The position numbers were made by a program, and so were the translations under genes. The notes beneath the pieces were generated by a model. That model had not been told where the DNA came from. It searched no databases and saw only the letters and a program-made list of their open reading frames with translations. A DNA stretch of 37,118 bases from a virus: IMG/VR virus record IMGVR_UViG_3300035698_005697, positions 1 to 37,118 of that record. One strand, given 5' to 3'. Of this stretch, positions 14,028 to 35,387 are shown piece by piece. Position 1 is the stretch's first letter; each line of letters opens with the position of its first letter.

Positions 14028-14645
14028 ATGACCATTTCTGATTTCGAAGAAAAACTAGAGGAGATATTCGAGGCATTTACTCCTACTCCTTCTCCAAAGA
14101 ACGCTATTCCAGTTGTGGTAGTTCCTGGTAGATATAGTGTCCCACATCTAGGACATTTTGAATTATTTGAATTAGCGATGAAAATTTATGGAAAAAAGGC
14201 AAAAAAACTTGTAGTAGCTATAGTTATGGGCAAGAAATCAGGAGAGGATAAAGAACGAAATCCTACTACATTTAAATATAGAAAAGATATGATAAAGAAG
14301 GTTATGAAATCGAAAGGGATAGATACTGAGATTATCGAAGTTCCAGATGGTTTCCCTAGTGGCATAATTCATGTATTAAGAACAAAAGGTATGGAACCTT
14401 TAAATTTTGTTGCTGGTGTAGATAGAATTAAACAATACAAAACAATAGTAGATAAGAATAAAGAAAACTGGGGATATTCTGGTGAAGTTGTTAAGATACC
14501 AGATGCTAAGAGAAAATTTAAAGATAAACCTAGAGCGACAGATGTAAGAAAATCTATAAGAGATAATGATGAAGAATTTTTTAAGAAGAGTATGCCTAAG
14601 GAATTACATGGTGAATTTAAAAAATTACAGGATATTTTATCATGA
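14028..14645 (+). CDS. HIGH-motif nucleotidyltransferase (cytidylyltransferase-like)
   Basis: The 205-residue protein has the core of the cytidylyl/adenylyltransferase superfamily. V-V-V-P-G-R-Y-S-V-P-H-L-G-H-F-E-L-F (residues 30-47) carries the H-x-G-H signature at 40-43. The C-terminal R-A-T-D-V-R-K-S-I matches the (S/T)xxxR motif that contacts the triphosphate. Relatives make NAD, FAD, CoA or CDP-alcohol intermediates; the substrate here is unknown. The enzyme core is preceded by a leader, MTISDFEEKLEEIFE|A, with I-F-E at 13-15, then a Thr/Pro linker (TPTPSP). This fits a cleavable capsid-targeting leader. The stop overlaps the next start (ATGA). Confidence 0.8.
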   Translation: MTISDFEEKLEEIFEAFTPTPSPKNAIPVVVVPGRYSVPHLGHFELFELAMKIYGKKAKKLVVAIVMGKKSGEDKERNPTTFKYRKDMIKKVMKSKGIDTEIIEVPDGFPSGIIHVLRTKGMEPLNFVAGVDRIKQYKTIVDKNKENWGYSGEVVKIPDAKRKFKDKPRATDVRKSIRDNDEEFFKKSMPKELHGEFKKLQDILS

Positions 14646-15943
14646 GATTTAAAAGATTTCTGTCAATAATGACTGAAGCGCACACAAGTAAGAGTGGTGC
14701 TACCACACACATGTCACATATTGAAGATTATATATTAGAAAATGGCGCTAGTGGATTAGATTGGTTTATCAAAGATGTTAATTTGATAATAGATTTTTTC
14801 AAGAAACAATCTGAGACAGAGGTTGTTTTCAAAACTGATGGTTCTCCTTCTATCTTTTTCGGTAAAAATCCTAATAATGATAAGTTTTTTGTAGCGACTA
14901 AAGCAATTGGTGTAAAAAATCCTAAATTGATATATTCGAAAGCTGATATTTCTAAACACGGATATTCTGGTGAATTAGGGAATATCCTATTAGAGTCACT
15001 TAAATTATTGAAAGGTATGGATTTTAATTCTGATAATATATTTCAAAGTGATTTACTTTGGGCGCCCGCAAGACCATTAACGAATGAAAAAATAATGGGA
15101 TTAAATTATTTGGTTGCTACCCCTAATACTATTAGTTATGCTATCCCGGAAAATTCAGAAAATTATAGTCAAGCAAAAAAATCAAAGATGGGATTAGTTG
15201 TTCATACTGTATATGATGTTACTAAGACCGATGATGAAAATCCGAATGTATTTAAACTCAAAGAAATAAATCCTAGAACAGAAGTGAAAAAGATGTTCAA
15301 ACAGTCGTTAGGTGGTAATGTAATGGTCATCCATCCTTTTTTTGATAATGAAAAGGTGACTGTAATGTCTGTTAAAGAGATTGGGGATATTAGTAAAAAA
15401 ATTGGTAATATCAAGAAGATGGTTAATAGTATAAGTAAATTGTTTAATGTAAATTTTAAAGGTAGTAAGTTACAATTAGAATTAATTAAGTTCTTGAACT
15501 CTCAATTGAGGAGAAGCAAGGGTGGAATTTTTAACGCAATCCGTAGTGGTCAAAAATTTGATTATGATAGATTGATCAAATCATTTATCCAGTATCTTAA
15601 TACTACAACAAAGAGTAAAATTGAAAAATTGAAAACTGAAGCGGGTAAAGAGAAAAGTAAAAAGGGTTTAGATGATTTTATTAAGGATAATATAAAGGGG
15701 CAAAAGGATAATATAAAAAAATTATTAGATTCTTTTATTATGATGTTGTCCATTAAAAATACTATATATGATAAGTTATCTAGCATTGACGGTCATGTGG
15801 GTGATACTTTTATTAGTAATGTTACAACCAAAAAATATTCTAAAACTTCAGGAGAAGGGTTTGTAGTATTTGGTTCTCAAGGAACTTTTAAGATTGTTGA
15901 TAGATTGGAATTTTCCAGAAACAATTTTTTAAAGAGGAACTAA
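14642..15943 (+). CDS. Ligase-like covalent nucleotidyltransferase fold protein (predicted)
   Basis: In this 433-residue protein, V-V-F-K-T-D-G-S-P-S-I-F-F-G (residues 61-74) matches motif I (KxDG) of ATP-dependent ligases and related enzymes, with Lys64 as the expected nucleotide-binding residue. Near the C-terminus S-G-E-G-F-V-V-F (about 405-412) and F-K-I-V-D-R match motifs IV and V. Between them sits an unusually long Lys-rich helical insertion (about residues 230-390). I recall similar uncharacterised proteins in other myoviruses (possibly DUF6267), not checked here. The N-terminus MRFKRFLSIMTEA is a variant of the capsid-targeting leader. It could be an RNA or DNA ligase or a protein-modifying enzyme. 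Confidence 0.65.
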   Translation: MRFKRFLSIMTEAHTSKSGATTHMSHIEDYILENGASGLDWFIKDVNLIIDFFKKQSETEVVFKTDGSPSIFFGKNPNNDKFFVATKAIGVKNPKLIYSKADISKHGYSGELGNILLESLKLLKGMDFNSDNIFQSDLLWAPARPLTNEKIMGLNYLVATPNTISYAIPENSENYSQAKKSKMGLVVHTVYDVTKTDDENPNVFKLKEINPRTEVKKMFKQSLGGNVMVIHPFFDNEKVTVMSVKEIGDISKKIGNIKKMVNSISKLFNVNFKGSKLQLELIKFLNSQLRRSKGGIFNAIRSGQKFDYDRLIKSFIQYLNTTTKSKIEKLKTEAGKEKSKKGLDDFIKDNIKGQKDNIKKLLDSFIMMLSIKNTIYDKLSSIDGHVGDTFISNVTTKKYSKTSGEGFVVFGSQGTFKIVDRLEFSRNNFLKRN

Positions 15944-15944
15944 T

Positions 15945-16271
15945 GTGGATATAATCATTTTTAATGAAAAGTTAGAATCTATATTTAAATTGGATATTTT
16001 GACTGAGGGTGGTGCCGCAAAAGTTGGTTCATATCAGGCATCTTCTATTCCTATTAGGGGAGAGGGATCATTAGAGAGGGGTTATGTTAGAGATTTGATA
16101 ATAGATTCTCTTAGACAACTTAATATAGAATTTGATAAAGATAATAAAACTCCATTATTTAAAGATTTTAAAAATGTAGAGAGCGGAAAGTTATTTGCTG
16201 GTTCTTCTGAATCTTTTATGGATAAAAGTATTTCTGATGATGATTACTCAAAATCCAAACCTAGTAGGTGA
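15945..16271 (+). CDS. N-terminal part of a Pol-beta-like nucleotidyltransferase (split gene)
   Basis: A 108-residue frame from a GTG, with GAGG upstream. A leader, MDIIIFNEKLESIFKLDILTE|GG, ends in L-T-E at residues 19-21. A helix and then L-F-A-G-S-S-E-S-F (83-91) follow, the G-S motif of DNA polymerase-beta-type nucleotidyltransferases. The frame stops at AGG-TGA. The next motif, G-D-M-D-L-Q-V, with the catalytic Asp pair, begins at exactly that point in the +1 frame. The two frames together would make one enzyme. An indel, a sequencing error or a programmed frameshift could explain this. Confidence 0.65.
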   Translation: MDIIIFNEKLESIFKLDILTEGGAAKVGSYQASSIPIRGEGSLERGYVRDLIIDSLRQLNIEFDKDNKTPLFKDFKNVESGKLFAGSSESFMDKSISDDDYSKSKPSR

Positions 16272-16272
16272 T

Positions 16273-17133
16273 ATGGATTTACAAGTCAATAAAATAGTTA
16301 CCGATAAACTCAAAATATTTTTCATAAAGAATAAAGGCAAGAAATTTGGAAATTTGATATTTAGGGGATTTATTGATGGTGGGTTACAATTAATTACTGT
16401 ATGGGGTATGCCTAAGAATGATGTGGTTGATAACATACAAATTGATTTTGAACTCGTAGCGTATGATAATTCTGTTCCTAAAGATATATTTATGTTTATG
16501 CGTAGTTCGGCATGGGAAGATATGAAAGAAAATATCAAAGGAGTTTTTCATAAATTTTTAATACAATCCTTTATGTCTTCAACTGGTCTTGAATTTTTCA
16601 TAATAAATAAGGCGGGTTTAAAATCTGTCGAAGAAGGAACCGCTTTGTTACCTAAACATTTAAAAAAGAAGATGGGTAATAAGGTTGTGGTATTGGGGCC
16701 AGAAGGGATAAGAACTAAATATACTATGGTTACCGATAAAAAGGGGAAACCTGTAACATTTAAAGGGACTAAGGTATTTAACGAATTGACTACTAGTGAA
16801 TCGAAAATAGAAACTAATATGGGTAGAATATTTCAGTTAATTTTTAGTAAAAAATCTAGTAAACAGGAATTAGATAGATTTAAGAGTTTTATTGGTATAT
16901 TGGATTTATTTAAAAAACTGAAAATTCCTGATAAGAGGATATTACAAACTGTTGATACATTCTCTAAATCTTTATGGGGTGATAGATCAGTAAAATTGGG
17001 GAAAACTGGAGAGGATGATAAAGATGTAAAGATGGCATCTTGGTTAATGATAAGTAAAAAGTTCCCCTCTATATGGAATAAAGTAGAAAAGAATATAAAT
17101 AAAGATAGAGATAACTATTATAAAAGATATTAG
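16273..17133 (+). CDS. C-terminal part of a Pol-beta-like nucleotidyltransferase (split gene)
   Basis: If translated alone from the ATG at 16273, the 286-residue product begins M-D-L-Q-V and would lose the first Asp of the G-D-M-D-L catalytic motif, which lies just before the ATG in the same frame. The body is a basic alpha/beta protein (strand F-D-G-type G-F-I-D-G-G-L-Q-L-I-T-V, then helices). AGGTGAT before the ATG resembles a ribosome site but is too close to it. The frame is open upstream to 16195, overlapping the N-terminal part. I read both as pieces of one nucleotidyltransferase of about 395 residues. See the entry at 15945. Confidence 0.6.
   Translation: MDLQVNKIVTDKLKIFFIKNKGKKFGNLIFRGFIDGGLQLITVWGMPKNDVVDNIQIDFELVAYDNSVPKDIFMFMRSSAWEDMKENIKGVFHKFLIQSFMSSTGLEFFIINKAGLKSVEEGTALLPKHLKKKMGNKVVVLGPEGIRTKYTMVTDKKGKPVTFKGTKVFNELTTSESKIETNMGRIFQLIFSKKSSKQELDRFKSFIGILDLFKKLKIPDKRILQTVDTFSKSLWGDRSVKLGKTGEDDKDVKMASWLMISKKFPSIWNKVEKNINKDRDNYYKRY
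17094..17101 (+). promoter_or_regulatory. TATAAATA late-type element inside the end of the preceding gene
   Basis: An exact match 41 nt before the ATG at 17143, inside coding sequence for N-I-N-K. The distance suits a late promoter, but the coding sequence alone could produce it. Confidence 0.4.
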
Positions 17134-17142
17134 AGGAATAAC

Positions 17143-17715
17143 ATGTATAAAGAGATTATGGAATCAGTATTGAAGGAATTTAATGCTGGGGATGTTGTGG
17201 AATATAATTATGGTCCTGGTAATCAACTAGGAAAGATTTATAAGGTTATCCCTAAAGGTTATGAGATACATGCTATCAGAAAGAATAAAAAAGGTGAATA
17301 TGTGAAAACCTTTGTTCTTGATACAGTTGAGAAAAAGGATGTATTGAAGAAGGCAACAATTAAGGGTAAACTTGTAGAAGCAGTTGATTTATCTAAGGGT
17401 AGATTAGACCAACCAACTAAGAATAAGATTGCTAAGGGATTTGCGAAGAAGGGTCTTGATGGTAATGGAAAATTCTCTAGTATAGGTAAGGGACTCAATG
17501 CTATCTTTGATGTCCTCTCAGACTTTGGTATTGAACCTGATATGGTATTGAATGCAGACTTATTCAGGGGTGACTCAGGACAAAGGTTATTGAATATCGC
17601 ATATAAAAACCCAGATGATATTTATTCGCCATACCCAATTGGTAAATCTGGTGTAGCTATGTCCTGGTATAAGAGGAAAGCAAACAACTACGAAATCTTA
17701 ACATACATGTCATAA
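17143..17715 (+). CDS. Hypothetical protein with capsid-targeting-like leader, 190 aa
   Basis: The N-terminus MYKEIMESVLKEFNAGD has L-K-E at residues 10-12 as a possible gp21 site. Next comes a short beta domain (G-D-V-V-E-Y-N-Y-G-P-G-N-Q-L-G-K-I-Y-K-V-I) resembling an SH3-like barrel, then a Lys-rich stretch and a helical C-terminal domain ending in G-K-S-G-V-A-M-S-W-Y-K-R. No enzyme motif is seen. It is preceded by AGAGGAA and is followed 10 nt later by the large 694-aa gene. A packaged internal protein is inferred from the leader only. Confidence 0.6.
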   Translation: MYKEIMESVLKEFNAGDVVEYNYGPGNQLGKIYKVIPKGYEIHAIRKNKKGEYVKTFVLDTVEKKDVLKKATIKGKLVEAVDLSKGRLDQPTKNKIAKGFAKKGLDGNGKFSSIGKGLNAIFDVLSDFGIEPDMVLNADLFRGDSGQRLLNIAYKNPDDIYSPYPIGKSGVAMSWYKRKANNYEILTYMS

Positions 17716-17725
17716 GAGAATTGTA

Positions 17726-19810
17726 ATGAGATTTAAACATTTTATCACCGAAGCTCCGAAGAAACCTATACAGAAGAAGGTTCCTGCTAAGAAAAAGGAA
17801 GTATTGAATACTGTAATGGTAAAGGGTAAGGCTTTACGATTGACTGGTGATGATGGAAAGAAACATCCTGTAAAGAAATCTTCAAGTGGTAAGTATTTCG
17901 TTTATAGCACTAAGAAGAAAGAACATGTGCCTGCTCCAGCAAAAATTATAAAACAAGTCAAACAAGCAGAACAAGGACAAACGGGTGATGAAGTCCAGAA
18001 GGATATTCCTAAGAAAGGCGCAACCAAAAAGTCACAACCACAAGATACCTCTGGATCAGTTGATCAACCACAAGATACCTCTGGATCAGTTGATAAAATA
18101 TCTGGTGTAGTTAAGGTATCAAAAGATGGCGGCGAGATGAACAAGGTTGTTAATAAACTCGCAGAATTACCTGATAAACAACTAAATGCTTTCATCAAAC
18201 AAAATAAAGATAATATATCATTTAATAAAGAGATGCCTTCTGATTCTATTAAGATGTATTTTGCTGGTGATCTGAGCGCAGATAGTGGGAGACATAAGAC
18301 AGCGGTTGCTAAAAAAGGTTCTCCTTTATATAATAACATAGAGAAGTTTTATAATGCTCAACAAGCAACGGGTGGATCAAATGTCGCAAGGGGTTCCCGT
18401 CAAGTAGGGGATGCCTTTAAGATTAATACAAGGGGCGTAGATATATCAAATATTGAGAATGGATTTATGGGTAATCCAAAAGATGAATTATCAAAGGCCA
18501 AAGTAAGTCCTGAAGAGAAAAAGAAATTGGATAAGGTTATTCAGGTTATGGAAGAGTTAGGACATGATGAGGTTGCGGCAGTTTCTACTGATACATATTT
18601 TAAAAATCCAAAACAATATAAGAAACAAATGGAATCATTAACAACTGAACTTTTGGATAAAACTCTCGATGAGTTCTCTAATAAGTTTAAAGATAAGAAA
18701 TCTTCTGATGCTGTTAAAAAGATATATACTCAGATGAGTAATAAGATGAAGGGCGGTAAAATAACGGAAGATGAAATTGGTACATATTACAAACAGATGC
18801 AAGATAATATATCACCAGATTTCCAGGGCGCTTTTGGAAATAATATGGGGGAACTATTTGCGGTTAATGTAGAGGTAGAGAGGGGAGATTATGTAATGAT
18901 CCCGACTGCTAATGCAAAATTGGGAGATAAGGTTAGTGTATTCTCTAGGAATAAAGCAACTGATGAACCTATAGTAATTGTTGCAGCACAGGGATCAGTC
19001 AAGAAGGCCGCAAAGTCAACTGTAGGTGGACAACATACTGGTTCGGGTATTATTCAAGGATGTGATATTGATAATAAAGAATCAAAATCATCCGCTTGGG
19101 CAGGAACAAAATATTTATTTCCTGATATTGATCTTGCGGCAAAAAGTGGTGAAGACGTAAGTAAATTACAAGTAAAACCTGCTAATATAGGTCATTACTT
19201 GAAATCTGGTCACACTAATCCTTCTCTATTAAAAGGTGCTGGAATTAAAGGGGATGAAAAACCTAAAGAACAAATTGCGAAATTATCTGAGTATATGAAT
19301 AATCCAAAAAATCAAAATAAAGTCAAGGGTATGTTGATGAAAGATATGGGCGATAATTCTCCAGAGTTTAAGGCAGATAAGGAAGTATTACAAAAACAGA
19401 TAAAACAATATGGTGGTGTAGAGAAGTATGTTAAAAAGTTTATGGGTGGGACAACTGGAGATAAAGGTAAGGTTGCTGTTAATGCTATGAATGCGTTGGT
19501 ATCTGGTAAATATGATAATTTGACCCCTAAAGAGTTAGCTATGGCAGGACTATTGGTAACAATCTCACAGAAGAAGGGTGAGAATTTCACATATGATGTT
19601 GTAGATACTGATAAAGAGAAGTGGAAACTCCATAAGGCATATGGACAAGATAAGAATGGTGAGACTATTCATAAGGTAGATGGTAGTTATATTACTGGTA
19701 TGTTATTGTCATATGACTTCAATCCTAGAATTGATAAAGAAAAGAAAGCATTTAATGTTGGCAAGAGATCTATAGAAGAGATTAATAGAATCTCACAAAG
19801 AAAAGTATAA
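17726..19810 (+). CDS. Large hypothetical protein with capsid-targeting-like leader, 694 aa
   Basis: The leader MRFKHFITE|APKKP has I-T-E at residues 7-9 and is the cleanest of its type here. After it comes about 120 residues of basic, Lys/Pro-rich, probably disordered sequence with a perfect duplication of QPQDTSGSVD (30 bp twice). From about residue 130 the protein looks globular and includes D-Y-V-M-I-P-T-A-N-A-K-L-G-D-K-V-S-V-F-S and a Gly-rich V-G-G-Q-H-T-G-S-G-I-I-Q-G. I recognise no catalytic motif. Its size, its leader and the expected cleavage suggest a major internal head protein that is ejected with the DNA, in the manner of T4 Alt. The function is unknown. Confidence 0.6.
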   Translation: MRFKHFITEAPKKPIQKKVPAKKKEVLNTVMVKGKALRLTGDDGKKHPVKKSSSGKYFVYSTKKKEHVPAPAKIIKQVKQAEQGQTGDEVQKDIPKKGATKKSQPQDTSGSVDQPQDTSGSVDKISGVVKVSKDGGEMNKVVNKLAELPDKQLNAFIKQNKDNISFNKEMPSDSIKMYFAGDLSADSGRHKTAVAKKGSPLYNNIEKFYNAQQATGGSNVARGSRQVGDAFKINTRGVDISNIENGFMGNPKDELSKAKVSPEEKKKLDKVIQVMEELGHDEVAAVSTDTYFKNPKQYKKQMESLTTELLDKTLDEFSNKFKDKKSSDAVKKIYTQMSNKMKGGKITEDEIGTYYKQMQDNISPDFQGAFGNNMGELFAVNVEVERGDYVMIPTANAKLGDKVSVFSRNKATDEPIVIVAAQGSVKKAAKSTVGGQHTGSGIIQGCDIDNKESKSSAWAGTKYLFPDIDLAAKSGEDVSKLQVKPANIGHYLKSGHTNPSLLKGAGIKGDEKPKEQIAKLSEYMNNPKNQNKVKGMLMKDMGDNSPEFKADKEVLQKQIKQYGGVEKYVKKFMGGTTGDKGKVAVNAMNALVSGKYDNLTPKELAMAGLLVTISQKKGENFTYDVVDTDKEKWKLHKAYGQDKNGETIHKVDGSYITGMLLSYDFNPRIDKEKKAFNVGKRSIEEINRISQRKV
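18035..18094 (+). repeat. 30-bp perfect tandem duplication in coding sequence
   Basis: Two adjacent identical 30-bp copies (18035-18064 and 18065-18094) encode QPQDTSGSVD twice within a disordered linker. The perfect identity points to a recent duplication. Confidence 0.9.
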
Positions 19811-19840: not shown

Positions 19841-20320
19841 ATGGCATACAATGAATTAAAGAAAATTATTGATAAAACTAATCGTATCAATGAGGCAGCA
19901 GAAATTGAGAGATATAGGAAAAGACAAACTCGTACTTTCGGTCAAGCGAGAGATGATGAGTCATTTGGTATAGACCCAGAGGGTAATGAGGGAGATCCAG
20001 AAGATTATGATGAACATACACATGAGTATGCTAATCTTGATAGAGATGCGACATATGATAAGTATGATAAAACATCTTCAGAACAGAATGATACTAGAAA
20101 GAAAAATAGCGAGGCCGATGGAAATGATAAGAAAGCACCATATGCGCCATTTGGTCCTGCTGCTGGTATTACCTCTAAAGTTACAGAATATGAAGATGAT
20201 GGGGATATGGAAGAATCCGCAGAACAATCTGATGATTTGACACAATTAAAAGAATTGGTCCAAAAATTAGGTCCAGATAAGATCATTGAAACTGTTAAAA
20301 GTTTGATGGGGTCAGAATAG
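19841..20320 (+). CDS. Acidic hypothetical protein with leader, 159 aa
   Basis: The N-terminus MAYNELKKIIDKTNRINE|AAE has I-N-E at residues 16-18 followed by Ala, a good gp21-type site. The rest is acidic and mostly disordered (Asp/Glu/Tyr-rich), with a short hydrophobic motif APYAPFGPAAGITSKV and a helical C-terminus (DDLTQLKELVQKLGPDKIIE). It overlaps the following gene by one base (TAG/GTG). It resembles prohead core or internal proteins by composition only. Confidence 0.6.
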   Translation: MAYNELKKIIDKTNRINEAAEIERYRKRQTRTFGQARDDESFGIDPEGNEGDPEDYDEHTHEYANLDRDATYDKYDKTSSEQNDTRKKNSEADGNDKKAPYAPFGPAAGITSKVTEYEDDGDMEESAEQSDDLTQLKELVQKLGPDKIIETVKSLMGSE

Positions 20321-20925
20321 TGGGAACATTTCGCAGATTTATTAATGATTTAGAAGAATCACAAAAACATCTTGATGATTTAGATAAAGAAGATCATGAA
20401 GATGTAATGGATATTAGTGATGATGATTTTGAAGATGATGATGAAGATGATGAAGAAGGTGAAGCAATTGATCCTGATGATGTAGATGACTTATCAGATA
20501 CCGAAACTGAAATAGATGAAGCAACCAAACAAAAAAATGCCAAAGAAATTTTAGGAGATCGGTGGAAAAAGAAATCCCGTCTGTATATACTACAGAAGTT
20601 AGGGAGTAAGGATAAGAAGAAAGGAGAGAAGGTAAAGAAAGTAAAGATAACACCTATGATGATTGCTAGATTTAATATGATGTATGACTGGAATTCTAAA
20701 GTTGGAAGATTTGGCAAATGGGTTCCAAGGAAAAACAAAAGTGAATTTGCCAAAAAACATCCATTAGCACAAGAGATAAAGAAGATCAAAAAGAAAGCGA
20801 GAAGGTTGAAGAAAATTAAGAGAAGAGGTGGGGTTCAAACCAAAGTTGCGAGAATGAAGAAAATTAAAAGAATGAAAACTGGTGGAAAAACAGTTGATAA
20901 TAAAGGCAAGGTAGTTAAACAGTAA
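20320..20925 (+). CDS. Bipolar acidic/basic protein, probable cleaved internal head protein
   Basis: The product starts from a GTG that overlaps the previous stop, and has 201 residues of two opposite kinds. The first 67 are very acidic (runs such as DDDFEDDDEDDEEGE). The rest is extremely basic (KKIKKKARRLKKIKRRGG near residue 155). The junction reads T-E-I-D-E|A-T-K, an exact (I/L)xE gp21-type site at residues 65-67. A second possible site, L-E-E|S, lies at 11-13. I infer that the acidic half acts as a propeptide or core element and that cleavage releases a 130-residue DNA-binding protein that could condense packaged DNA. No known domain is visible. Confidence 0.65.
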   Translation: MGTFRRFINDLEESQKHLDDLDKEDHEDVMDISDDDFEDDDEDDEEGEAIDPDDVDDLSDTETEIDEATKQKNAKEILGDRWKKKSRLYILQKLGSKDKKKGEKVKKVKITPMMIARFNMMYDWNSKVGRFGKWVPRKNKSEFAKKHPLAQEIKKIKKKARRLKKIKRRGGVQTKVARMKKIKRMKTGGKTVDNKGKVVKQ

Positions 20926-20944
20926 ATTATTTTTATAAATATAA
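20917..20944 (+). repeat. 28-bp direct repeat carrying a late promoter, copy 1
   Basis: This 28-bp sequence recurs exactly at 21272-21299. It spans the last codons of one gene and the TATAAATA element. Confidence 0.85.
20934..20941 (+). promoter_or_regulatory. T4-type late promoter element TATAAATA
   Basis: An exact element with an upstream T tract, 24 nt before the ATG at 20965. It is part of a duplicated 28-bp block. Confidence 0.7.
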
Positions 20945-20964
20945 ATGATATAACGGAGATAATA

Positions 20965-21255
20965 ATGTATAAAGAAATCGTAAAGGAAGCAATAGAGGGT
21001 GATTTTGGTGGGTATGATGAGTTTGATGCTGAAATGTTACAAGATGTTGTAGTTGATTGGTTGGAAACTAATATCAAGAAACAGAAGAATGAATTAAGTA
21101 AGATTGCTAAAAATATGGGAATTAAAGGCGCCTCTCTTAAAAAGGTGACAGGTACAGGTGGTAGTGGTAGCGGTAAAAGTGGTATGAAAACTACGCTTAC
21201 ATTCAAAACTCCTGATGGGGATAAGAATATAGAAGTTCTTATTAAATTGAAATAA
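20965..21255 (+). CDS. Small hypothetical protein with leader-like start, 96 aa
   Basis: The start MYKEIVKE|AIEGD is the same type as the protein at 17143 (MYKEI), with V-K-E before Ala as a variant cleavage site. The remainder is one helix pair followed by a Gly/Ser hinge (TGTGGSGSGKSG) and a beta-hairpin (MKTTLTFKTPDGDKNIEVLIKLK). The G-x-x-x-x-G-K-S-like hinge is too short and out of context to be a Walker A site. It has its own late promoter and a CGGAGA ribosome site. Confidence 0.6.
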   Translation: MYKEIVKEAIEGDFGGYDEFDAEMLQDVVVDWLETNIKKQKNELSKIAKNMGIKGASLKKVTGTGGSGSGKSGMKTTLTFKTPDGDKNIEVLIKLK

Positions 21256-21271
21256 GGATTAGTATAACTGA

Positions 21272-21299
21272 AAACAGTAAATTATTTTTATAAATATAA
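21272..21299 (+). repeat. 28-bp direct repeat carrying a late promoter, copy 2
   Basis: Identical to 20917-20944. Copy 2 sits wholly in intergenic DNA, which suggests that the promoter segment was copied to serve the downstream gene. Confidence 0.85.
21289..21296 (+). promoter_or_regulatory. T4-type late promoter element TATAAATA
   Basis: An exact element 36 nt upstream of the acidic gene at 21332, within repeat copy 2. Confidence 0.7.
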
Positions 21300-21331
21300 G
21301 TAAAGCATTTGTCATTTAGAAGGAGAATATA

Positions 21332-21898
21332 ATGAGTAGTATAGAAGAAGTCTTAGAGAGAGTTGAAAGCAAGTTTAATGATATGCTTGAAGTATTCTCC
21401 GAAAAGTTTACACTTAAAGGAAAAAAAGGGAAAAAAGGAAAAGATGAAGAGGGTGAAGATGAGGATACGGAAAATGGCGAAGAAGAGGACGAAGATGAGG
21501 TTGAAGAATCTCTCGGTGGTTTTGAGAAGGGTAAGTCTGAAGTCACTGTCGATGGTTTCGATCCTAAAGACAAGAGCAAGAAAGCTGGTTTTAAAGAGTC
21601 TAAAGACACCGAAGACGAAGAAGAGGATGACGAAGCTGACGCAGATGAGAAAGAAGATGAAGAATCTGACGAAGAAGATGAAGATAAGAAAGACAAGGTA
21701 GAAGAGTCCGAAGGTGGATTTGATCCCAAAAGTAAGAAGGGTGGGAAGGAAAAAGTCGGTGGTTTCCGTGGTAAAGGTCAAGTTGACAAACCAAACGAAG
21801 ATCCTGGTTTTGATGAAGATGAAAACCCTGAAGGAAAAGAAGTAAAAGCAGGCACAAAGAAGGCGAAGAGTAACGCCAAGCCTGGAAAATTAGTTTAA
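21332..21898 (+). CDS. Highly acidic low-complexity protein, 188 aa (prohead-core-like)
   Basis: A helical N-terminus (MSSIEEVLERVESKFNDMLE) is followed by long Glu/Asp runs alternating with short basic Gly-Phe motifs: GGFEKGK, DGFDPKDKSKK, GGFDPKSKKGG, GGFRGKG and PGFDEDE. The composition resembles the acidic tail of T4 gp67, but the repeats do not. A scaffold-core or charge-neutralising role in the head is plausible. A strong AAGGAG ribosome site suggests high expression. It has its own late promoter. Confidence 0.6.
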   Translation: MSSIEEVLERVESKFNDMLEVFSEKFTLKGKKGKKGKDEEGEDEDTENGEEEDEDEVEESLGGFEKGKSEVTVDGFDPKDKSKKAGFKESKDTEDEEEDDEADADEKEDEESDEEDEDKKDKVEESEGGFDPKSKKGGKEKVGGFRGKGQVDKPNEDPGFDEDENPEGKEVKAGTKKAKSNAKPGKLV

Positions 21899-21922
21899 TC
21901 ATAAGGAATAGTTGGGTATAGT

Positions 21923-22198
21923 GTGTCCGATTGGAAAACAATTTTAGAGTTGGTAAAACGAGAGATTGTTAAGAATAAAAATACCGGAGAACATTCGGCG
22001 CACTATACATCATCTAATCCAAATAAAAAAATAGTAAGAAGTGATATTGATGGAGAACCTAAAGAGGTTCGCATGACACCTGAAGAGATAGAAAAACGTA
22101 AGAAATCTCAAGTACATGGTGGTAATAAACAGAGGGGTATTACCAAAATCAACAAAGAAATGATTAAACGTAAAAAAGAACGAGAGGAATCAAAATGA
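21923..22198 (+). CDS. Small basic hypothetical protein, 91 aa
   Basis: A GTG start opens a helical N-terminus (SDWKTILELVKREIVKNKNT), then a basic, probably disordered body with HYTSSNPNKKIVRSD and a Lys/Arg-rich end (NKEMIKRKKEREESK). The upstream ribosome site is weak. The stop overlaps the next ATG (ATGA). The high positive charge next to very acidic neighbours suggests a DNA-binding or charge-pairing partner. Confidence 0.5.
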   Translation: MSDWKTILELVKREIVKNKNTGEHSAHYTSSNPNKKIVRSDIDGEPKEVRMTPEEIEKRKKSQVHGGNKQRGITKINKEMIKRKKEREESK

Positions 22199-23265
22199 GT
22201 ATCAATGGGCTTATAAAATTAGTAGATAAGATTAGTTCTATTTATGATACGGAGAATCAATCAAAGACAGTAGCTAAGAAAAAGTTTGTTGCTGATGATG
22301 AAAAAATTGATACTGATAAATCAAAAGGCGTTAAGGATGATGAAGAATCCGATGAAGAATTGACTGATGAACAGAAACAATTAATTAGTGATTTCGTAAA
22401 AAATAATCAAAATATGTCAGATGATTTGCTTCATGGGTTTGCGGAAAAGAATGGCATGAATGTTCATAAAGTTGAAGAGTTTATTTATAGTTTGGTTCAT
22501 GGTAATTTGAATACAGATGACACAGAAACTCAGGACGGAGGACAAGAAAATGCAGACGATAATAACGATACCAGCGATAATACTGATAATAGTGATACTG
22601 AAGATACTGGTGAAGAAGATGACGACATAGTAAATAATATTGATAAGAAGATAAGTAATGGTGATAGTAATGACTTGGATTCAGCAATTAGTGATATAGC
22701 ACAACAAGTAAGTTCTGATGGAGAAGAATCAGATGAGGAAACATTAGACGAACAAGATCCTGAAGAAGAGGAAGAAGAGGAACCTGTTGATGGTGAAGAA
22801 GAACCCGTTGATGGAGAAGAAGAACCCGTTGATGGAGAAGAAGAACCTGTTGATGGAGAAGAAGAACCCGCTGACGATGATGATATTGTCAATAAGATTG
22901 ATGATGTAATTGGTCAAGCAGATGATCCAGATAACCCTGTCCCTCCTGGTCAAGGTGGCAGTGAACTTCCTCAAGATGGTGAAGAAGAACCAGAATTACC
23001 TATTGAGATTGAAAGTTTTATAGATGGCGAAGAATATGATTTGGAGATTAATAACGCATTTGATTTTTATGAAATCTGTATCAATAATTTGATTGATGAC
23101 GAATCGATAAATGCCATGAATTCTATTTACGAGACTATACCAGATACAAAAAGAAAGTTGACAAGCGCAGAATATCTATATAATAAAACATTAGATTTCA
23201 TAAAGAAACAAAGACAAACGGGCGAAGAAGATCCAGAATTAACAACAGGACAACCACCAGTATGA
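22195..23265 (+). CDS. Acidic protein with tandem EEEPVDG repeats, 356 aa
   Basis: Helical segments near the N-terminus (INGLIKLVDKISSIY; LTDEQKQLISDFVKNN) and at the C-terminus (YDLEINNAFDFYEICINN; SAEYLYNKTLDFIKKQR) flank about 170 residues of Asp/Glu-rich disordered sequence. This contains five tandem units of E-E-E-P-V-D-G. The folded ends suggest a tethering protein that holds two partners on an acidic linker. I do not recognise the family. It lies in overlap with both neighbours. Confidence 0.6.
   Translation: MSINGLIKLVDKISSIYDTENQSKTVAKKKFVADDEKIDTDKSKGVKDDEESDEELTDEQKQLISDFVKNNQNMSDDLLHGFAEKNGMNVHKVEEFIYSLVHGNLNTDDTETQDGGQENADDNNDTSDNTDNSDTEDTGEEDDDIVNNIDKKISNGDSNDLDSAISDIAQQVSSDGEESDEETLDEQDPEEEEEEEPVDGEEEPVDGEEEPVDGEEEPVDGEEEPADDDDIVNKIDDVIGQADDPDNPVPPGQGGSELPQDGEEEPELPIEIESFIDGEEYDLEINNAFDFYEICINNLIDDESINAMNSIYETIPDTKRKLTSAEYLYNKTLDFIKKQRQTGEEDPELTTGQPPV
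22774..22878 (+). repeat. Five 21-bp tandem repeats
   Basis: Five consecutive 21-bp units, each encoding E-E-E-P-V-D-G. The middle units differ by only one or two bases and the last diverges to E-E-E-P-A-D-D. They are coding repeats, with no spacers, so not CRISPR. Confidence 0.9.
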
Positions 23266-23702
23266 AACAAATATTGGTAGAAGGTAGACTAATAGACGCA
23301 GCAATAGTATTAGTTCTTGCCACACGTTTACTCAAACCTTTTAAATCTTGGGATGCTTTTAAATTGGGTATCATAGATGAAAAGGGTGATAAGATCAAAG
23401 AACCTGAGACTTCAAAAGAGAAAGATTCATGGAGTTTCTTAAATAGGTTTATTGCTAGAATTAAGAAATCATTAACTAGTAAGGCTATACTCGGACTAAC
23501 CCTTTACTATACATTACTGAAAGAAGAGAAAGATGGTGAGGTTAGGAGTAAAGAAGAGATTGTCGAAACTGCTGGTAGAAAGATTAAGGCAGTAAAAATA
23601 TATGAACAATTTAGAGATACTTTATCAATGAATAATTTTACTGAAGAAGAGTATTATAATTACCTATTAGATGAGTTGATGTCTAAAACCGAATTGAAAT
23701 AA
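23262..23702 (+). CDS. Conserved-type myovirus structural protein candidate, 146 aa
   Basis: A very short start, MKQILVE|GR, puts L-V-E at residues 5-7. The body has a hydrophobic helix (LIDAAIVLVLATRLLKPF), a motif W-D-A-F-K-L-G-I-I-D-E-K-G-D-K-I-K-E-P, and a basic amphipathic helix. By recollection, proteins with the K-L-G-I-I-D-x-x-G pattern recur in marine T4-like phages beside head genes, but their function is unknown and I could not check. It overlaps the previous gene (ATGA). Confidence 0.6.
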   Translation: MKQILVEGRLIDAAIVLVLATRLLKPFKSWDAFKLGIIDEKGDKIKEPETSKEKDSWSFLNRFIARIKKSLTSKAILGLTLYYTLLKEEKDGEVRSKEEIVETAGRKIKAVKIYEQFRDTLSMNNFTEEEYYNYLLDELMSKTELK

Positions 23703-25131: not shown

Positions 25132-25635
25132 ATGAGTAAAGAAGAATTTATCATGGATTTTATGAAGTTCCTATATGAAGAAAAGAAAGTTCAATATAAT
25201 TTGGATTCTCTTGAGGAACAATATGTCATCGAAGAGTTAGAAGAGAAGGGTTATGTAAAATCCTTTTGTAATGAATATTTCCTTGATGAGAAGGGTATCG
25301 CTTTCTTTGATAGGATGGAACAAATGGTAGTTGAAGAATATGAATTAGAGAATAATCCAAGCAAAACTTATATCAAATACAAGATATATAATGAATTAGG
25401 TTTGATGGAGAATCAAGTTGTGGATTTTGAATTAGAACCTAATGATGGTCTACCTATTATCCAAGTGACTGATGAAAATTATAGTAACTTACTATCAAGA
25501 AATAAAGGGCAACACTGGAGAAGGTATATCGGTGAAGATGGTAGAAAACTTATTAGAGGTAAGAAGTTAAAACGTTTTTATGTAGTAAACGAAAAGTCAA
25601 ATAAGAAATATCTTTATCTAGTTCCCTCAGAATAA
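25132..25635 (+). CDS. Hypothetical protein, 167 aa, possibly winged-helix N-terminus
   Basis: The first 70 residues (EEFIMDFMKFLYEEKKVQYN, then E-E-L-E-E-K-G-Y-V-K-S-F, F-L-D-E-K-G-I-A-F-F-D-R-M) read like a small winged-helix fold with a hairpin. The second half contains a beta-rich stretch and a basic motif R-K-L-I-R-G-K-K-L-K-R-F-Y-V-V. The same R-G-K-x-L motif occurs in the minus-strand protein at 602. GAGG precedes the ATG. The function is unknown. Confidence 0.6.
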   Translation: MSKEEFIMDFMKFLYEEKKVQYNLDSLEEQYVIEELEEKGYVKSFCNEYFLDEKGIAFFDRMEQMVVEEYELENNPSKTYIKYKIYNELGLMENQVVDFELEPNDGLPIIQVTDENYSNLLSRNKGQHWRRYIGEDGRKLIRGKKLKRFYVVNEKSNKKYLYLVPSE

Positions 25636-29174: not shown

Positions 29175-29732
29175 ATGAAACTAAATAAAGCATTTGAGTT
29201 AGTTAAACTATATGAGAAGGTAACCTATATGAATGGTCCTGCTCTAGCAAAGTATATCAATAAAAACATTGATATAAAAGGCGTAAAGATAGCATTTGAG
29301 AAAGTTGGTGGTGAAGGCGCAGTAATGATTCACTATGATACTGATTCTGAACATTTACTTATTAGTCTTGAGGGATATGATAGTAAAGGTGAGTTATCTT
29401 CACCACATGATAATGTCCAAGTAGATGTAATTACCGTACAGAAATTGCCAAAGATAAAGAAAATAAAGGGTTCCCCTAAGACAGTTGCTAATGCGGTCAT
29501 CAAATATTTCAAGGATAACACAAAGAGTTTTGTTACTGAAGATGGTGATATAGGTGGAACTACTGCTGATGGTAACACTGTTTCTGATGATGTCTCTGGT
29601 GGAACTACTACCGATAATATCGCAGTATATAAAAAACCAATAGGAGATGACGAAGAGGATATTAAGGCAGAACTAAAGAAAAGAGAACTTAATAGGAAAA
29701 ATAATAAGAAGAATCTTAAAAAATTGAAGTAG
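29175..29732 (+). CDS. Hypothetical protein with leader-like start, 185 aa
   Basis: The start MKLNKAFELVKLYE|KV has L-Y-E at 12-14. The folded part (about residues 20-115) is alpha/beta with V-M-I-H-Y-D-T-D-S-E-H-L-L-I-S-L-E-G-Y. A Gly/Thr/Asp-rich linker (GGTTADGNTVSDDVSGGTTT) and a basic helix at the C-terminus follow. It lies directly before gp4, with only 6 nt between. It is probably a virion protein but is unidentified. Confidence 0.6.
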   Translation: MKLNKAFELVKLYEKVTYMNGPALAKYINKNIDIKGVKIAFEKVGGEGAVMIHYDTDSEHLLISLEGYDSKGELSSPHDNVQVDVITVQKLPKIKKIKGSPKTVANAVIKYFKDNTKSFVTEDGDIGGTTADGNTVSDDVSGGTTTDNIAVYKKPIGDDEEDIKAELKKRELNRKNNKKNLKKLK

Positions 29733-31754: not shown

Positions 31755-31997
31755 ATGTATTTAGAAATTATAAATGAAGCAAGTGATAATGATATTTCTA
31801 AGATTAAACTTCGTGGATATGATTGGTTTATGAAAAAAATAGATTCTACCCATTTTACAATGGCTATGGATAAAAGTGGGTTAGGTAGTGGTATGAGTGT
31901 ATATCATATTGGTCAAGCAAAGGGTGAATCATATTACAAAGATGTTTTGGATTGGTTACATGGTAAGAGTGACATTTCTGGCAAATCTTACAAATAA
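31755..31997 (+). CDS. Small hypothetical head-region protein with leader, 80 aa
   Basis: The leader MYLEIINE|ASDND has I-N-E at residues 6-8 before Ala, a clean gp21-type site. The mature part would be a compact alpha/beta protein (KIKLRGYDWFMKKIDSTHFT, then VYHIGQAKGESYYKDVLDWL). It lies between gp20 and the gp67-like gene, where T4 has no counterpart known to me. A packaged or prohead-core protein is likely from context. Confidence 0.65.
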   Translation: MYLEIINEASDNDISKIKLRGYDWFMKKIDSTHFTMAMDKSGLGSGMSVYHIGQAKGESYYKDVLDWLHGKSDISGKSYK

Positions 31998-32167: not shown

Positions 32168-32300
32168 GACAGAAGAATATATAGATAAGTTAATCAATAA
32201 GGATGATGACCGAAAGGCGGTATTGAAGAGTATCGTTCTGGAAAGGATCGCCAAGAAGATGGCTGACCATATTCAAAAGAAATATATAAAGGATGAATAA
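32160..32300 (+). CDS. Small prohead-core candidate (gene 68 position), 46 aa
   Basis: An ATG overlapping the end of the gp67-like gene opens a 46-residue frame starting MNKTEEYIDKLINKDDDRKA. It is helical and highly charged, and ends K-K-Y-I-K-D-E. It occupies the position of T4 gene 68 but is much shorter, and I see no sequence match. The overlaps on both sides (8 bases upstream; its stop adjoins the protease start) support translation. Confidence 0.55.
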   Translation: MNKTEEYIDKLINKDDDRKAVLKSIVLERIAKKMADHIQKKYIKDE

Positions 32301-32301
32301 A

Positions 32302-33003
32302 ATGAAAGAACTAACATTTCTAAAAGAGTATGTAGATACCGCATCTGTTAAGATTTTATCAGAGTCAAATAAAAATGATCCTCAAGGTAGGAAGAAACTT
32401 TATATTGAAGGACCATTTCTTCAGGGTGATGTTCTTAATCGTAATGGTAGAGTTTATCCTACTGCTATGTTAGAGAAGGCAATTGGTAGGTTTAAGGAAA
32501 CCAAGATCAAGGGTGTTGGTGCCCCCGGAGAATTAAATCACCCTATGGGCGTAGAAATTAATCTTGATAGAGTTTCACATTACATTACTGAATTAGGTAT
32601 GAATGGTAATAATGGTATGGGTAAAGCTATGATAGCAACTACCCCTAAAGGAGAGATTGCTAGGAATTTACTAAATGATGGTATGATTCTAGGAGTTTCA
32701 ACCCGTGGATTAGGTAAACTTGATGAAAACGGTAAAGGAGATAAGGTTGTATCTGATTTTGATCTTGTAACGGTTGATATTGTTGCTGACCCTTCTGCAC
32801 CAGATGCTTATGTTGAAAGTGTTATGGAAGGTTTAAAATATTATATTGATAATAACAATGAGATACAATTGTCATCTAAGATTGATGATATATTAAAAGG
32901 TATGAAGGGAAAACTCAGTAACTTATCTTGTAATTCAACTACAAGAAATACTAATTATTATGAGTGTGTGAGGTATGCTTTAAATAAACTAGATGATAGG
33001 TAA
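32302..33003 (+). CDS. 21: gp21-like prohead protease
   Basis: The 233-residue serine protease of the herpesvirus-like prohead protease type has G-P-F-L-Q-G-D-V-L-N-R-N-G-R-V-Y-P near residue 37, the catalytic His in G-E-L-N-H-P near 80, the nucleophile Ser in L-G-V-S-T-R-G-L-G near 137, and the conserved D-P-S-A-P-D-A near 170. It cuts scaffold, capsid and internal proteins at (L/I)-x-E sites. Its own N-terminus has such a site, I-L-S-E|S at 18-21, probably for self-processing. I chose the ATG at 32302 because AAGG lies 9 nt before it; the ATG at 32293 touches the ribosome site. Confidence 0.93.
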   Translation: MKELTFLKEYVDTASVKILSESNKNDPQGRKKLYIEGPFLQGDVLNRNGRVYPTAMLEKAIGRFKETKIKGVGAPGELNHPMGVEINLDRVSHYITELGMNGNNGMGKAMIATTPKGEIARNLLNDGMILGVSTRGLGKLDENGKGDKVVSDFDLVTVDIVADPSAPDAYVESVMEGLKYYIDNNNEIQLSSKIDDILKGMKGKLSNLSCNSTTRNTNYYECVRYALNKLDDR

Positions 33004-33014
33004 ACGAAAAAAAA

Positions 33015-33022
33015 TATAAATA
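33015..33022 (+). promoter_or_regulatory. Late promoter element, distal copy before gp22
   Basis: An exact TATAAATA in the 95-nt gap between gp21 and gp22, 77 nt before the gp22 ATG. It is the first of two in tandem. Confidence 0.6.
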
Positions 33023-33057
33023 AATATGTAAAGGAATTTTAGTTAGGTGAATTTTTT

Positions 33058-33065
33058 TATAAATA
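33058..33065 (+). promoter_or_regulatory. Late promoter element, proximal copy before gp22
   Basis: The second exact TATAAATA, with an upstream T tract, 34 nt before the gp22 ATG. Two late promoters in series fit the heavy demand for scaffold and capsid. Confidence 0.75.
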
Positions 33066-33098
33066 ATAGTAATAAGAGTATTTTAGAAGGAGTCAAAT

Positions 33099-34019
33099 AT
33101 GAAGATTGAATTAAAAGACATTCTTGGTGAAGGCGTAAGTCAACTAGACGAATCGGAAGCAAGAGAACTATCTGAAAAAATTGAGAGGATAGTTAGCACA
33201 AGATTAGACGCAAAATTAGGTATGGAGCGTGAACTTGTTGAATCTGAAGCAAAGGAAAAATATGACAAAATCCTTTCTGAGAAGTCGGGATCATTTGAAG
33301 AACAAATGAAAGTTCTTGAGGAATCTCTTATTGCTAAGGCTGAAGACTTCAAAAATGCTATATCTGAGAAAGCAGATACATTCCTAACTTCTATTCAAGA
33401 AGAGAAGGAAACAGAAATTAAAGAGTTCAGGGAATCAACAGTATCACAACTTGATGAATACCTTGACTATGAATTAAGCAACGCAATTCCAGATGACCAT
33501 ATTGAAGCTATGGCTAAAGTTGCTGTTCTTGAACCTATTGTTGAAGGTTTTAAGAAAACTATGGAAGAAAATTATATTAAGTTTGATGAAGAAAGTTTTG
33601 GTTTGTTAAAGGAAGCTAAAGATGAGATCGTTAAACTTCGTGATGAGACTGCCAAGTCGGTAGAGGATAACATGAAGATTAATAGCGAACTTAAAGGTCT
33701 GAAGCGTACTACGAAAATCTCCGAGGTTTGTGAAGGATTGACTGACTCCCAATTTGAGAGAGCAAAAAAACTTCTTGAATCATATGATGCTTCTGAAATT
33801 GAAGATCGTTTTCCTATGATTAGGGATATGGTAATCAATGAAGAAACTAGTAGTGATTCTGAAGAAGGGGTCGAAGAGTTAAAGGAATCTGGAAATTCTG
33901 AAGTTTCTGAGGATGCCGGCGAAATATCAAAGGTTATCACAGAAGACAAAGAAGAGAAAGCTCCTGAAAACGCACTCATGTCTGAATATGCTGATTTATT
34001 CAGAAAGATGAGAAAATAA
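33099..34019 (+). CDS. 22: gp22-like scaffold (prohead core) protein
   Basis: The 306-residue, acidic, nearly all-helical protein has coiled-coil character through the first 210 residues. S-E-V-C-E-G-L-T-D-S-Q-F-E-R-A-K-K-L-L near 207 is typical of T4 gp22 scaffolds. A disordered acidic part and a conserved C-terminal helix (A-L-M-S-E-Y-A-D-L-F-R-K-M) follow. It forms the prohead core and is degraded by gp21. The N-terminus (I-L-G-E|G at 8-11) and the internal L-x-E sites fit this. It lies between gp21 and gp23, with an AAGGAG ribosome site. Confidence 0.9.
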   Translation: MKIELKDILGEGVSQLDESEARELSEKIERIVSTRLDAKLGMERELVESEAKEKYDKILSEKSGSFEEQMKVLEESLIAKAEDFKNAISEKADTFLTSIQEEKETEIKEFRESTVSQLDEYLDYELSNAIPDDHIEAMAKVAVLEPIVEGFKKTMEENYIKFDEESFGLLKEAKDEIVKLRDETAKSVEDNMKINSELKGLKRTTKISEVCEGLTDSQFERAKKLLESYDASEIEDRFPMIRDMVINEETSSDSEEGVEELKESGNSEVSEDAGEISKVITEDKEEKAPENALMSEYADLFRKMRK

Positions 34020-34052
34020 TTAACAAACAAATATCTAAAAGGAGATAATAAA

Positions 34053-35387
34053 ATGGCACATATAGGAAATATAAAGCTCGTTGAAAAATGGGCACCCGTC
34101 TTAGACGGTTTGACAGGTGATTCAGAAATTCTGAATACCGCAAAGTTATTGGAAAGTACTGAGAAGTATTTTGATAGTTCATGTAATGATGGTGTTTTCC
34201 TTTCGGAAGCGATAACCAATGGTACTCCATCTACTCCAGAAGGTACTGGTGACGGTAACGTACAGAGTGGAAATGGTGATTCAACTGGTTTTCAAGGTAT
34301 CGCTCGTTACAAGAAAATTGCTATCCCTCTAGTTAGGCGTGTATTCCCAGAACTTCTTGCTAATCAACTTGTTGGTGTTCAACCTATGAGTGGACCTGTC
34401 GGTCTTGCTTATGCTCTACGTTTTCGTAGAGAGGACACAAATGCAGAACTTGGTTACAATGTTCCTGATCCTACTTATACTGGTTCATATAGTACAAGTG
34501 CTGGTGAAGGTCTTAGTGAAACTGCTGGTAATTTAGGTTCTATCGGTAACACTATTAATGAAGCTGGACTTACTGTTGAACAAAAGGAAATCATCGCTCG
34601 TACTCGTAAACTAAAATCTCGTTGGTCAATTGAGGCACAACAAGACTTGGCAGCTATGCAAAATGTTGACCTTGAGGAAGAGATGATGGATCTTATGGCA
34701 TATGAGATTGCCGCAGAAATCGACCGTGAATTGGTTGCTCGTATTCATCGTGCTGCTGTTTTTGGTGGACAAATGACTTGGACCTATGGTACAAGTGCAT
34801 CTCAAAGTGGTACTGCTGATGGACGTTGGGAAATGGAGAAATTCAAGACTCTTTGGACATCTATTCTTCATGGTTCTGAAGAAATTGCTCGTACAACTCG
34901 TATGGGAGCTGGTAATTATGTTATCTGTTCTCCAAGAGTTGCTGTTGTTCTTCAACAAATGCCTGGTTTCACTCTTGCACCAGTTCAAGGTAAGGTAAAT
35001 GCTCTCGCTACAGGCGTGTCATTTGTCGGTACTCTTGGTGGTCTAAAGATTTATCGTGATACCTTTGCATATCAAAGTGATTTTTCTGCATGTAATGGTG
35101 TTGGAACTTCAACCAATGACTTCGCAGTTGTAGGTTATAAGGGTACTCGTGAAAACGATACAGGTATTATTTACTGTCCTTATATTCCTATCATGTTTGC
35201 TAAGGCAACTGGTGAAGAAAGTTTTAGTCCTAGAGCAGGTGTTATGACCCGTTACGGTATTGTTGACCATCTTTTTGGTTCACAAAACTACTATCGTAAG
35301 ATTAACGTGGTTGGTCTATCTGAAACTGGTTCTATTGGAACTTTCGTAGGGACCGCGACTACTGATTATGTTAGCACAGCCTGTTAA
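34053..35387 (+). CDS. 23: gp23-like major capsid protein
   Basis: The 444-residue capsid protein of the T4 gp23 type (HK97 fold) includes Y-K-K-I-A-I-P-L-V-R-R-V-F-P-E-L-L-A near residue 90, Q-P-M-S-G-P-V-G-L-A-Y-A-L-R-F, S-R-W-S-I-E-A-Q-Q-D-L near 190, and C-P-Y-I-P-I near 387. A cleavage site is visible: F-L-S-E|A at residues 49-53, where gp21 would remove a 52-residue propeptide. In T4 the corresponding cut is at residue 65. Synonymous codon choice differs from the neighbours, with more GCT, CGT and GGT codons, as expected for a very highly expressed gene. A strong terminator follows. Confidence 0.97.
   Translation: MAHIGNIKLVEKWAPVLDGLTGDSEILNTAKLLESTEKYFDSSCNDGVFLSEAITNGTPSTPEGTGDGNVQSGNGDSTGFQGIARYKKIAIPLVRRVFPELLANQLVGVQPMSGPVGLAYALRFRREDTNAELGYNVPDPTYTGSYSTSAGEGLSETAGNLGSIGNTINEAGLTVEQKEIIARTRKLKSRWSIEAQQDLAAMQNVDLEEEMMDLMAYEIAAEIDRELVARIHRAAVFGGQMTWTYGTSASQSGTADGRWEMEKFKTLWTSILHGSEEIARTTRMGAGNYVICSPRVAVVLQQMPGFTLAPVQGKVNALATGVSFVGTLGGLKIYRDTFAYQSDFSACNGVGTSTNDFAVVGYKGTRENDTGIIYCPYIPIMFAKATGEESFSPRAGVMTRYGIVDHLFGSQNYYRKINVVGLSETGSIGTFVGTATTDYVSTAC

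Follow-up and report, generated by a model that had tools for sequence, protein, structure and literature searches.

Capsid-targeting leaders of T4 and probable counterparts in the window

The internal protein IPIII of phage T4 is made with the leader MKTYQEFIAE↓A (↓ marks the known or predicted cut), in which the aromatic residues 4 and 7 serve targeting and residues 8 and 10 serve processing; published experiments established both steps, and Asp at position 10 blocked processing and left targeting intact (PMC9026906). A general role of the capsid-targeting sequence in T4-like phages has already been suggested (PMC9026906), and the T-even internal proteins that carry the leader are known to be injected and to act as inhibitors of restriction enzymes (PMC12373910). 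Here we analysed N-terminal leaders of this kind in IMG/VR record IMGVR_UViG_3300035698_005697 (37,118 bases, the whole of which is called the window below), a virus fragment from a very isolated environmental T4-like phage. These leaders are very probably capsid-targeting sequences of the kind carried by T4 internal proteins. The window probably encodes at least five proteins with a clear tag and several with a probable shortened one, and its protein resembling nicotinamide mononucleotide (NMN) adenylyltransferase has a candidate tag.

As in T4 IPI-IPIII (Mullaney and Black 1996, described in PMC9026906), the leaders are short and N-terminal, roughly 10-19 residues long, with an aromatic pair three residues apart and [IL]xE↓A, the mature proteins are unrelated and share only the leader, and the genome encodes a gp21-family protease. 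Unlike those of IPI-IPIII, the window leaders stand on a possibly ligase-like protein and on a 694-amino-acid orphan, and they include a variant with a few residues inserted ahead of the cut site. Arrays of unrelated genes under one leader are also found in T-even loci for the anti-restriction proteins Ip1-Ip3 (PMC12373910), but T-even Ips are small; many of the proteins tagged here, by contrast, are large, are probably enzymes and have no known role against restriction. T4 Alt, likewise an enzyme, is loaded into the head and undergoes processing at (I/L)xE, although it is cut at ITE-6 and again C-terminally (PMC5694885) and lacks the FxxF pair of the window leaders. In the giant phages phiKZ and SPN3US many head proteins, among them ejection proteins, are cut after Glu by a gp21-like protease; there, however, the motif is (S/A/G)xE or AxE and the propeptides are often long (PMC5694885). 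A further parallel is the NMN adenylyltransferase (NMNAT)/cytidylyltransferase of cyanomyovirus virions, to whose superfamily the window gene 14028 belongs and whose representatives in S-CREM2, S-SCSM1 and S-SZBM1 bear leaders. In our reading this is T4 targeting as already known, with enzymes of distant phages added to its cargo.

By analogy with T4 we infer packaging, cleavage and injection for the window phage. The Phe/Tyr-x-x-Phe/Tyr pair would bind the protein to the prohead core late in assembly, and the following [IL]xE would be cut after Glu by the phage gp21 protease, freeing the mature protein inside the head; the mature protein would be expected to exit with the DNA at infection.

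Leader excess in the window

Genes were called by a simple script based on codon usage and ribosome sites and are named below by their first coordinate; N-terminal shuffles (1000), internal Met positions and internal segments served as controls. The tripeptide [IL]xE with Glu at residues 6-18 was found in 22/43 genes as against 9.1 expected by shuffling (p=0.001, the floor of 1000 shuffles), while the control [IL]xD showed no clear excess (11 versus 7.5; p=0.10). Between 14028 and 34250, [IL]xE occurred in 14 of 25 genes (5.3 expected) and [ILVM]xE↓[AGS] in 10 of 25 (1.5 expected); outside this region the latter was present in 1 of 18 genes (0.8 expected). An earlier note on this DNA had listed starts ending in (I/L)xE and judged their share in the region too high for chance; all the listed starts were found in place, and the comparison of N-termini inside and outside the region bears the judgement out.

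A match to (I/L)xE alone arises by chance in roughly 10-22% of segments and is weak for any single gene; the loose motif was rejected as a per-gene test. Across eleven other T4-like or related phage records (including T4, HTVC008M, Melnitz, C48C1 and P-HM2) the frequency of [IL]xE was 12-23%, and that of the aromatic form, FxxF followed after 0-4 residues by [ILVM]xE, was 0-4%. The window had the aromatic form in 6/43 genes (0.0-0.5 expected). The aromatic pair three residues apart ahead of the cut site is a better discriminator than [IL]xE.

A leader profile was built from 107 distinct leaders of 80 IMG/VR loci around DUF6267 genes, the window being excluded from training. Scoring of all window genes revealed five that passed q<0.03, all with the aromatic pair F3/F6 or F4/F7:

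14642-14677, plus strand: leader MRFKRFLSIMTE↓A on the DUF6267 protein (14642-15943); profile p=1.4e-4, q<0.01
17726-17752, plus strand: leader MRFKHFITE↓A on a 694-amino-acid protein, family unknown (17726-19810); strict motif (defined below), profile score 18.0, the best in the window
20320-20358, plus strand: leader MGTFRRFINDLEE↓S on 20320-20925, GTG start; profile p=7e-4
24547-24579, plus strand: leader MRFKDFVILYE↓M on a 133-amino-acid orphan (24547-24948); profile p=1.2e-3
6106-6138, minus strand: leader MKFKEFSELYE↓I on a lysine-rich protein (gene 5629-6138); profile p=3.2e-3

Residues F4, F7 and I8 of the 20320 leader match T4, and the protein has an acidic N-terminal and a strongly basic C-terminal half. 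No relatives of 17726 were found in phages, in a single-protein IMG/VR scan or in the PDB, and none of 24547 in phages.

The genes 14028, 15945, 17143, 19841, 23262, 29175, 31755 and gp22 were not significant singly by the profile, and the aromatic pair is lacking in this weak class. With strong leaders and head genes set aside, [ILVM]xE↓[AGS] was still present in 6/16 genes of the region as against 0.9 expected (p=0.001). The list of the earlier note thus exceeds chance as a group, but the eight genes just named do not stand singly, and two of the strongest cases, 14642 and 20320, were missing from it, as was 20965 (MYKEIVKE↓A). Its figure of ten or more possibly packaged proteins agrees with the aggregate excess (22 versus 9), although no more than five genes can be singled out confidently. 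The short forms MYKEIVKE↓A and MYLEIINE↓A are plausible but unproven as leaders, since they resemble the starts MYNDLLVE↓D and MYNLLVE↓D that stand just before the domain in DUF6267 homologues.

The motif in environmental relatives

A strict motif, [FYW]xx[FYW][ILVM]xE, was searched in the 80 IMG/VR loci, which had been chosen for DUF6267, a family that accounts for roughly one in three hits (38 strict). It was present in 116/1084 N-termini and 9/7423 internal segments, an 88-fold excess that fell to 1.5-fold when Asp replaced Glu. At residues 10-14 the motif reached a density of 18.3 per 1000 residues, compared with 0.11 per 1000 past residue 30. Clustering placed the leaders on 39 sequence families, including DUF6267, cytidylyltransferases and P-loop kinases, with DUF6267 and cytidylyltransferases partly merged into one large cluster. 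Loci centred on the portal, chosen regardless of DUF6267, carried the motif in 6/936 genes, still N-terminally; set against 116/1084 around DUF6267, this indicated that the leaders are concentrated in the DUF6267/cytidylyltransferase neighbourhood, and an even spread over T4-like genomes was rejected.

As a control, the strict motif recovered T4 IPII and IPIII. In the T4 record OZ209057 it was also found in 18952-19116, minus strand (MKTFKEFIKE↓D, 54 amino acids, adjoining primase), and in 113385-113615, plus strand (MLLEFKQFLYE↓A, 76 amino acids), which we take to be UvsW.1. A small, conserved family, MKS(F/Y)xQF(L/I)SE↓S(V/I)xIxGDFNG, bears the strict leader in L263:2279, L275:11888, DSL-LC02 (155023) and S-CAM9 (85858); it recurs in cyanophage-like genomes and is likely to be a common internal protein.

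Leader-bearing enzymes in published virions

Table 3 of the S-CREM2 study (PMC10665884) lists four enzymes that are neither structural nor lytic in CsCl-purified virions. All four (4/4) bear the strict motif:

S-CREM2 S-adenosylmethionine (SAM) hydrolase: MKDFDSFLEE↓F
S-CREM2 APH/ChoK-like kinase: MKRFDAFLTE↓E
S-CREM2 cytidylyltransferase: MKNFSSFLTE↓A
S-CREM2 gp12, annotated Cas9/Csn1 nuclease (L189:7704-10313): ...LRFASFMAE↓A, Glu at residue 25

Judged by its leader, gp12 is a possible packaged nuclease. Among the 189 non-structural genes counted (from 212 coding sequences extracted, a few at stretch ends being excluded), the strict motif was carried by 4/24 virion-detected and 1/165 undetected proteins (Fisher p=9e-4). 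The virion NMNAT of S-SCSM1 starts MKSFLQFLKE↓A. In S-SZBM1 the one virion enzyme that is named, a cytidylyltransferase, starts MRFRQFIIE↓A, and the adjacent, leaderless DUF6267 protein of that phage is absent from the virion proteome table. According to the relevant passage of PMC3037559, S-SM1 virions include a putative cytidylyltransferase, T4-GC190. The passages concerned in the cyanomyovirus virion papers (PMC10665884, PMC9602691, PMC9146016, PMC3037559) are silent on a leader or a packaging mechanism.

Homologues with and without the leader

The leader behaves as a module. DUF6267 proteins carry it in most environmental loci and in DLP_6, C48C1, Melnitz and HTVC008M, and begin directly at the domain, leaderless, in P-HM2, S-CAM9, DSL-LC02 and S-SZBM1. 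Homologues of 15945 showed the same: that of Campylobacter phage CP220 starts MKLSELMFILE↓GG, and that of Vibrio phage pv27 starts M-GG without a leader. With the leader, at least one start codon can also be put right: in the annotation of the C48C1 cytidylyltransferase (OQ984149 CDS0089, L003:6649), an in-frame upstream GTG that yields (M)IKNFSQYLLE↓E was missed.

Candidate leaders and head genes

The remaining candidates in the window were as follows, with profile p values where given:

14028-14072, plus strand: candidate leader MTISDFEEKLEEIFE↓A on the NMN adenylyltransferase/cytidylyltransferase-like protein (14028-14645); weak singly, p=0.04
15945-16007, plus strand: candidate leader MDIIIFNEKLESIFKLDILTE↓GG (ending ...DILTE↓GG) on the nucleotidyltransferase-like protein; not significant by profile
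17143-17178, plus strand: weak candidate leader MYKEIMESVLKE↓F; p=0.24
19841-19894, plus strand: weak candidate leader ...NRINE↓A; p=0.33
20965-20988, plus strand: candidate short leader MYKEIVKE↓A, of the form seen in the DUF6267 homologues of HTVC008M (MYNDLLVE↓D) and L138 (MYNLLVE↓D); p=0.09
23262-23282, plus strand: weak candidate MKQILVE↓G on a protein with a hydrophobic stretch, no aromatic pair; p=0.72
25156-25179, plus strand: FxxFLYE↓E, a strict motif inside the N-terminus of 25132-25635 (MSKEEFIMDFMKFLYE↓E)
29175-29216, plus strand: weak candidate MKLNKAFELVKLYE↓K; p=0.26
31755-31778, plus strand: candidate short leader MYLEIINE↓A on an 80-amino-acid protein between gp20 and gp21, possibly a prohead core protein; p=0.06
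1037-1066, minus strand: additional candidate MDKYLDVLYE↓A on gene 602-1066; p=0.04

Gene 25132 reaches p=8e-4 only if an internal Met is the start; a GAGG site favours the start at 25132, and its leader was therefore left as a candidate.

Analyses with PHROGs indicated that gp20, gp21, gp22 and gp23 lie in the T4 order:

29739: gp4
30205: portal gp20
32293-33003, plus strand: prohead protease of the gp21 family (phrog_207, head maturation protease, 1.3e-61), the presumed processing enzyme
33099-34019, plus strand: gp22 scaffold/core (phrog_237, 1.2e-18), with N-terminal ILGE↓G
34053: major capsid protein gp23
34206-34208, plus strand: predicted gp23 maturation site VFLSE52↓A, an internal reference for protease specificity

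The gp23 site VFLSE↓A agrees in place and sequence type with SFLTE↓A of T4, SFLAE↓A of S-SCSM1 and GLLTE↓A of S-CREM2. The earlier note had listed gp22 in its candidate battery; gp22 is the scaffold and not cargo. The proteins at 21332-21898 and 22195-23265 are very acidic, repetitive (tandem EEPVDGE), near the head genes and possibly prohead core proteins.

Megablast with the region found no phage record similar at the DNA level, and IMG/VR scans run one protein at a time for 17726, 14642 and the portal likewise detected no relatives, so that leader conservation was not traceable in close relatives; more distant ones were reached through alignments. No portal found shares more than about 36% identity with that of the window.

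Late promoter-like sites

The T4 late promoter core TATAAATA was found at 26 sites in the window (8.6 expected) and lay 5-60 nucleotides (nt) upstream of 14/49 gene starts (1.2 expected). One site precedes the gene run 14028-14642-15945, and similar sites stand before 17143, 19841, 20965, 21332, 29175, gp20, 31755 and gp22:

13994-14001, plus strand: late-promoter-like TATAAATA, 26 nt upstream of 14028
Other distances upstream: 17143, 41 nt; 19841, 18 nt; 20965, 23 nt; 29175, 29 nt; 31755, 24 nt; 602-1066 (minus strand), 33 nt

The five firm leader genes all lack a TATAAATA site of their own within 60 nt. They follow genes that have one: 14642 after 14028, 17726 after 17143, 20320 after 19841, 24547 after 24225 and, on the minus strand, 5629 after the adjoining 6128-6421. 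The firm leader genes would be read through from these upstream genes with predicted late promoters. Identical 28-bp copies containing TATAAATA at 20917-20944 and 21272-21299, before two successive genes, form a putative duplicated late promoter.

Weighing the alternatives

The capsid-targeting interpretation of the earlier note is supported by the fit to the T4 positions, by the gp21-family protease and the gp23 site, by the N-terminal confinement and Glu dependence of the motif in relatives and, decisively, by the strict-leader enzymes in purified virions of S-CREM2, S-SCSM1 and S-SZBM1. Several observations weigh against it. The leader of the cytidylyltransferase-like 14028 is weak by the profile, and P-HM2 and HTVC008M are without a strict match. 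One DUF6267 clade, MFSFKGF... (L128, L130, L132, L133, L136, L144, L151, L160, L161, L162 and L182), retains the aromatic pair with Glu absent at the cut position, as if targeting were kept without processing. The virion proteomes are those of relatives and not of the window phage; in S-CREM2, 20/24 virion-detected non-structural proteins have no strict motif, and its authors, in the passage concerned, leave carry-over open as a source of virion detection (PMC10665884). The tag is neither universal nor the sole packaging route, and some tagged window proteins may be components of the prohead core and not injected cargo.

This last point can be extended to most of the tagged window proteins, which would then be prohead-core or scaffold proteins like T4 gp67 and gp68, cut up and expelled at maturation. 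The run 19841-23265 holds very acidic proteins near the head genes, 31755 occupies the place between gp20 and gp21 that gp67 and gp68 take up in T4, and T4 core proteins, too, have (L/I)xE sites near the N-terminus. We nevertheless consider this unlikely: among the tagged relatives are DUF6267 proteins, cytidylyltransferases and P-loop kinases that have folded domains, and mature virions purified on CsCl still contain tagged enzymes.

A docking tag for another partner, such as the membrane, RNA polymerase or the replication complex, with a Glu unrelated to the protease, is a far weaker proposal. An N-terminus that is aromatic and amphipathic might dock to many partners, and the DUF6267 clade without Glu would suit it, but Glu is strongly preferred over Asp at a fixed place, matching T4 gp21 chemistry, the gp23 maturation site is of the same sequence type, and leader enzymes are found in virions. 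Coincidence, by which a proteome rich in Glu, Leu and Ile yields (I/L)xE often and examples were selected, draws on the chance rate of single matches and on the listed genes that fail individually, but it was rejected for the set by composition-preserving shuffles and internal segments and by an independent profile that still finds five genes, and it may hold only singly, for 17143, 19841, 23262 and 29175.

Reach of the probable capsid-targeting leader

Head-injected proteins act first in infection, yet they are difficult to identify in phages other than the T-even ones. A leader readable from sequence would point them out in the genomes of environmental T4-like phages, and makes directly testable which enzymes T4-like phages inject. 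It also offers a mechanism for the presence of cytidylyltransferases, SAM hydrolase, kinase and Cas9-like nuclease in cyanophage virions. Apparently new are its reach into distant environmental and cyanophage lineages, the probable enzymes as cargo, their clustered location, the variant tolerant in spacing and the agreement with existing virion proteomes. In the open-access literature no paper linking this leader to non-T-even cargo was found; a paper outside that scope could exist.

A tentative extension, to which we give somewhat less than even weight, is that the portable leader loads clustered, exchangeable nucleotide-handling enzymes (the NMN adenylyltransferase-like, ligase-like DUF6267 and nucleotidyltransferase-like proteins and small kinases) that act on the host nicotinamide adenine dinucleotide (NAD) pool or on entering DNA before phage gene expression. 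If this is true, the leader alone lets injected proteins be read from sequence.

Proteins behind the leaders

The 14642 protein belongs to DUF6267 (PF19782, 8.5e-61). In its AlphaFold model the pLDDT (predicted local distance difference test) of residues 5-23 stayed under 50, whereas the body is folded (mean 82.1). The residues K64-x-D66-G67, E405-G406-x-V408 and K417-x-V-x-R421 are invariant across 62 sequences. Fold matches to RNA ligases reached a probability of up to 0.96 but template-modelling (TM) scores of 0.2-0.3, and the PDB gave no sequence match, none to a solved ligase; the motifs and weak fold matches suggest that DUF6267 is possibly ligase-like.

The 14028 protein matched PF01467 and, by BLASTP, the S-SCSM1 NMNAT (7e-9), and falls in the same superfamily as the virion NMNAT/cytidylyltransferases; the NCBIfam NMN adenylyltransferase match (1e-5) is below the model cut-off. 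Its homologues in three virions carry strict leaders. That 14028 makes NAD is a guess from sequence similarity. PADLOC found nothing in ten window proteins, mostly leader candidates.

The nucleotidyltransferase-like gene is split by a frame change into 15945-16271 and the overlapping 16195-17133, with the break between the GSS and GDMDL motifs. The two frames look like one interrupted gene, by sequencing error or by a real lesion.

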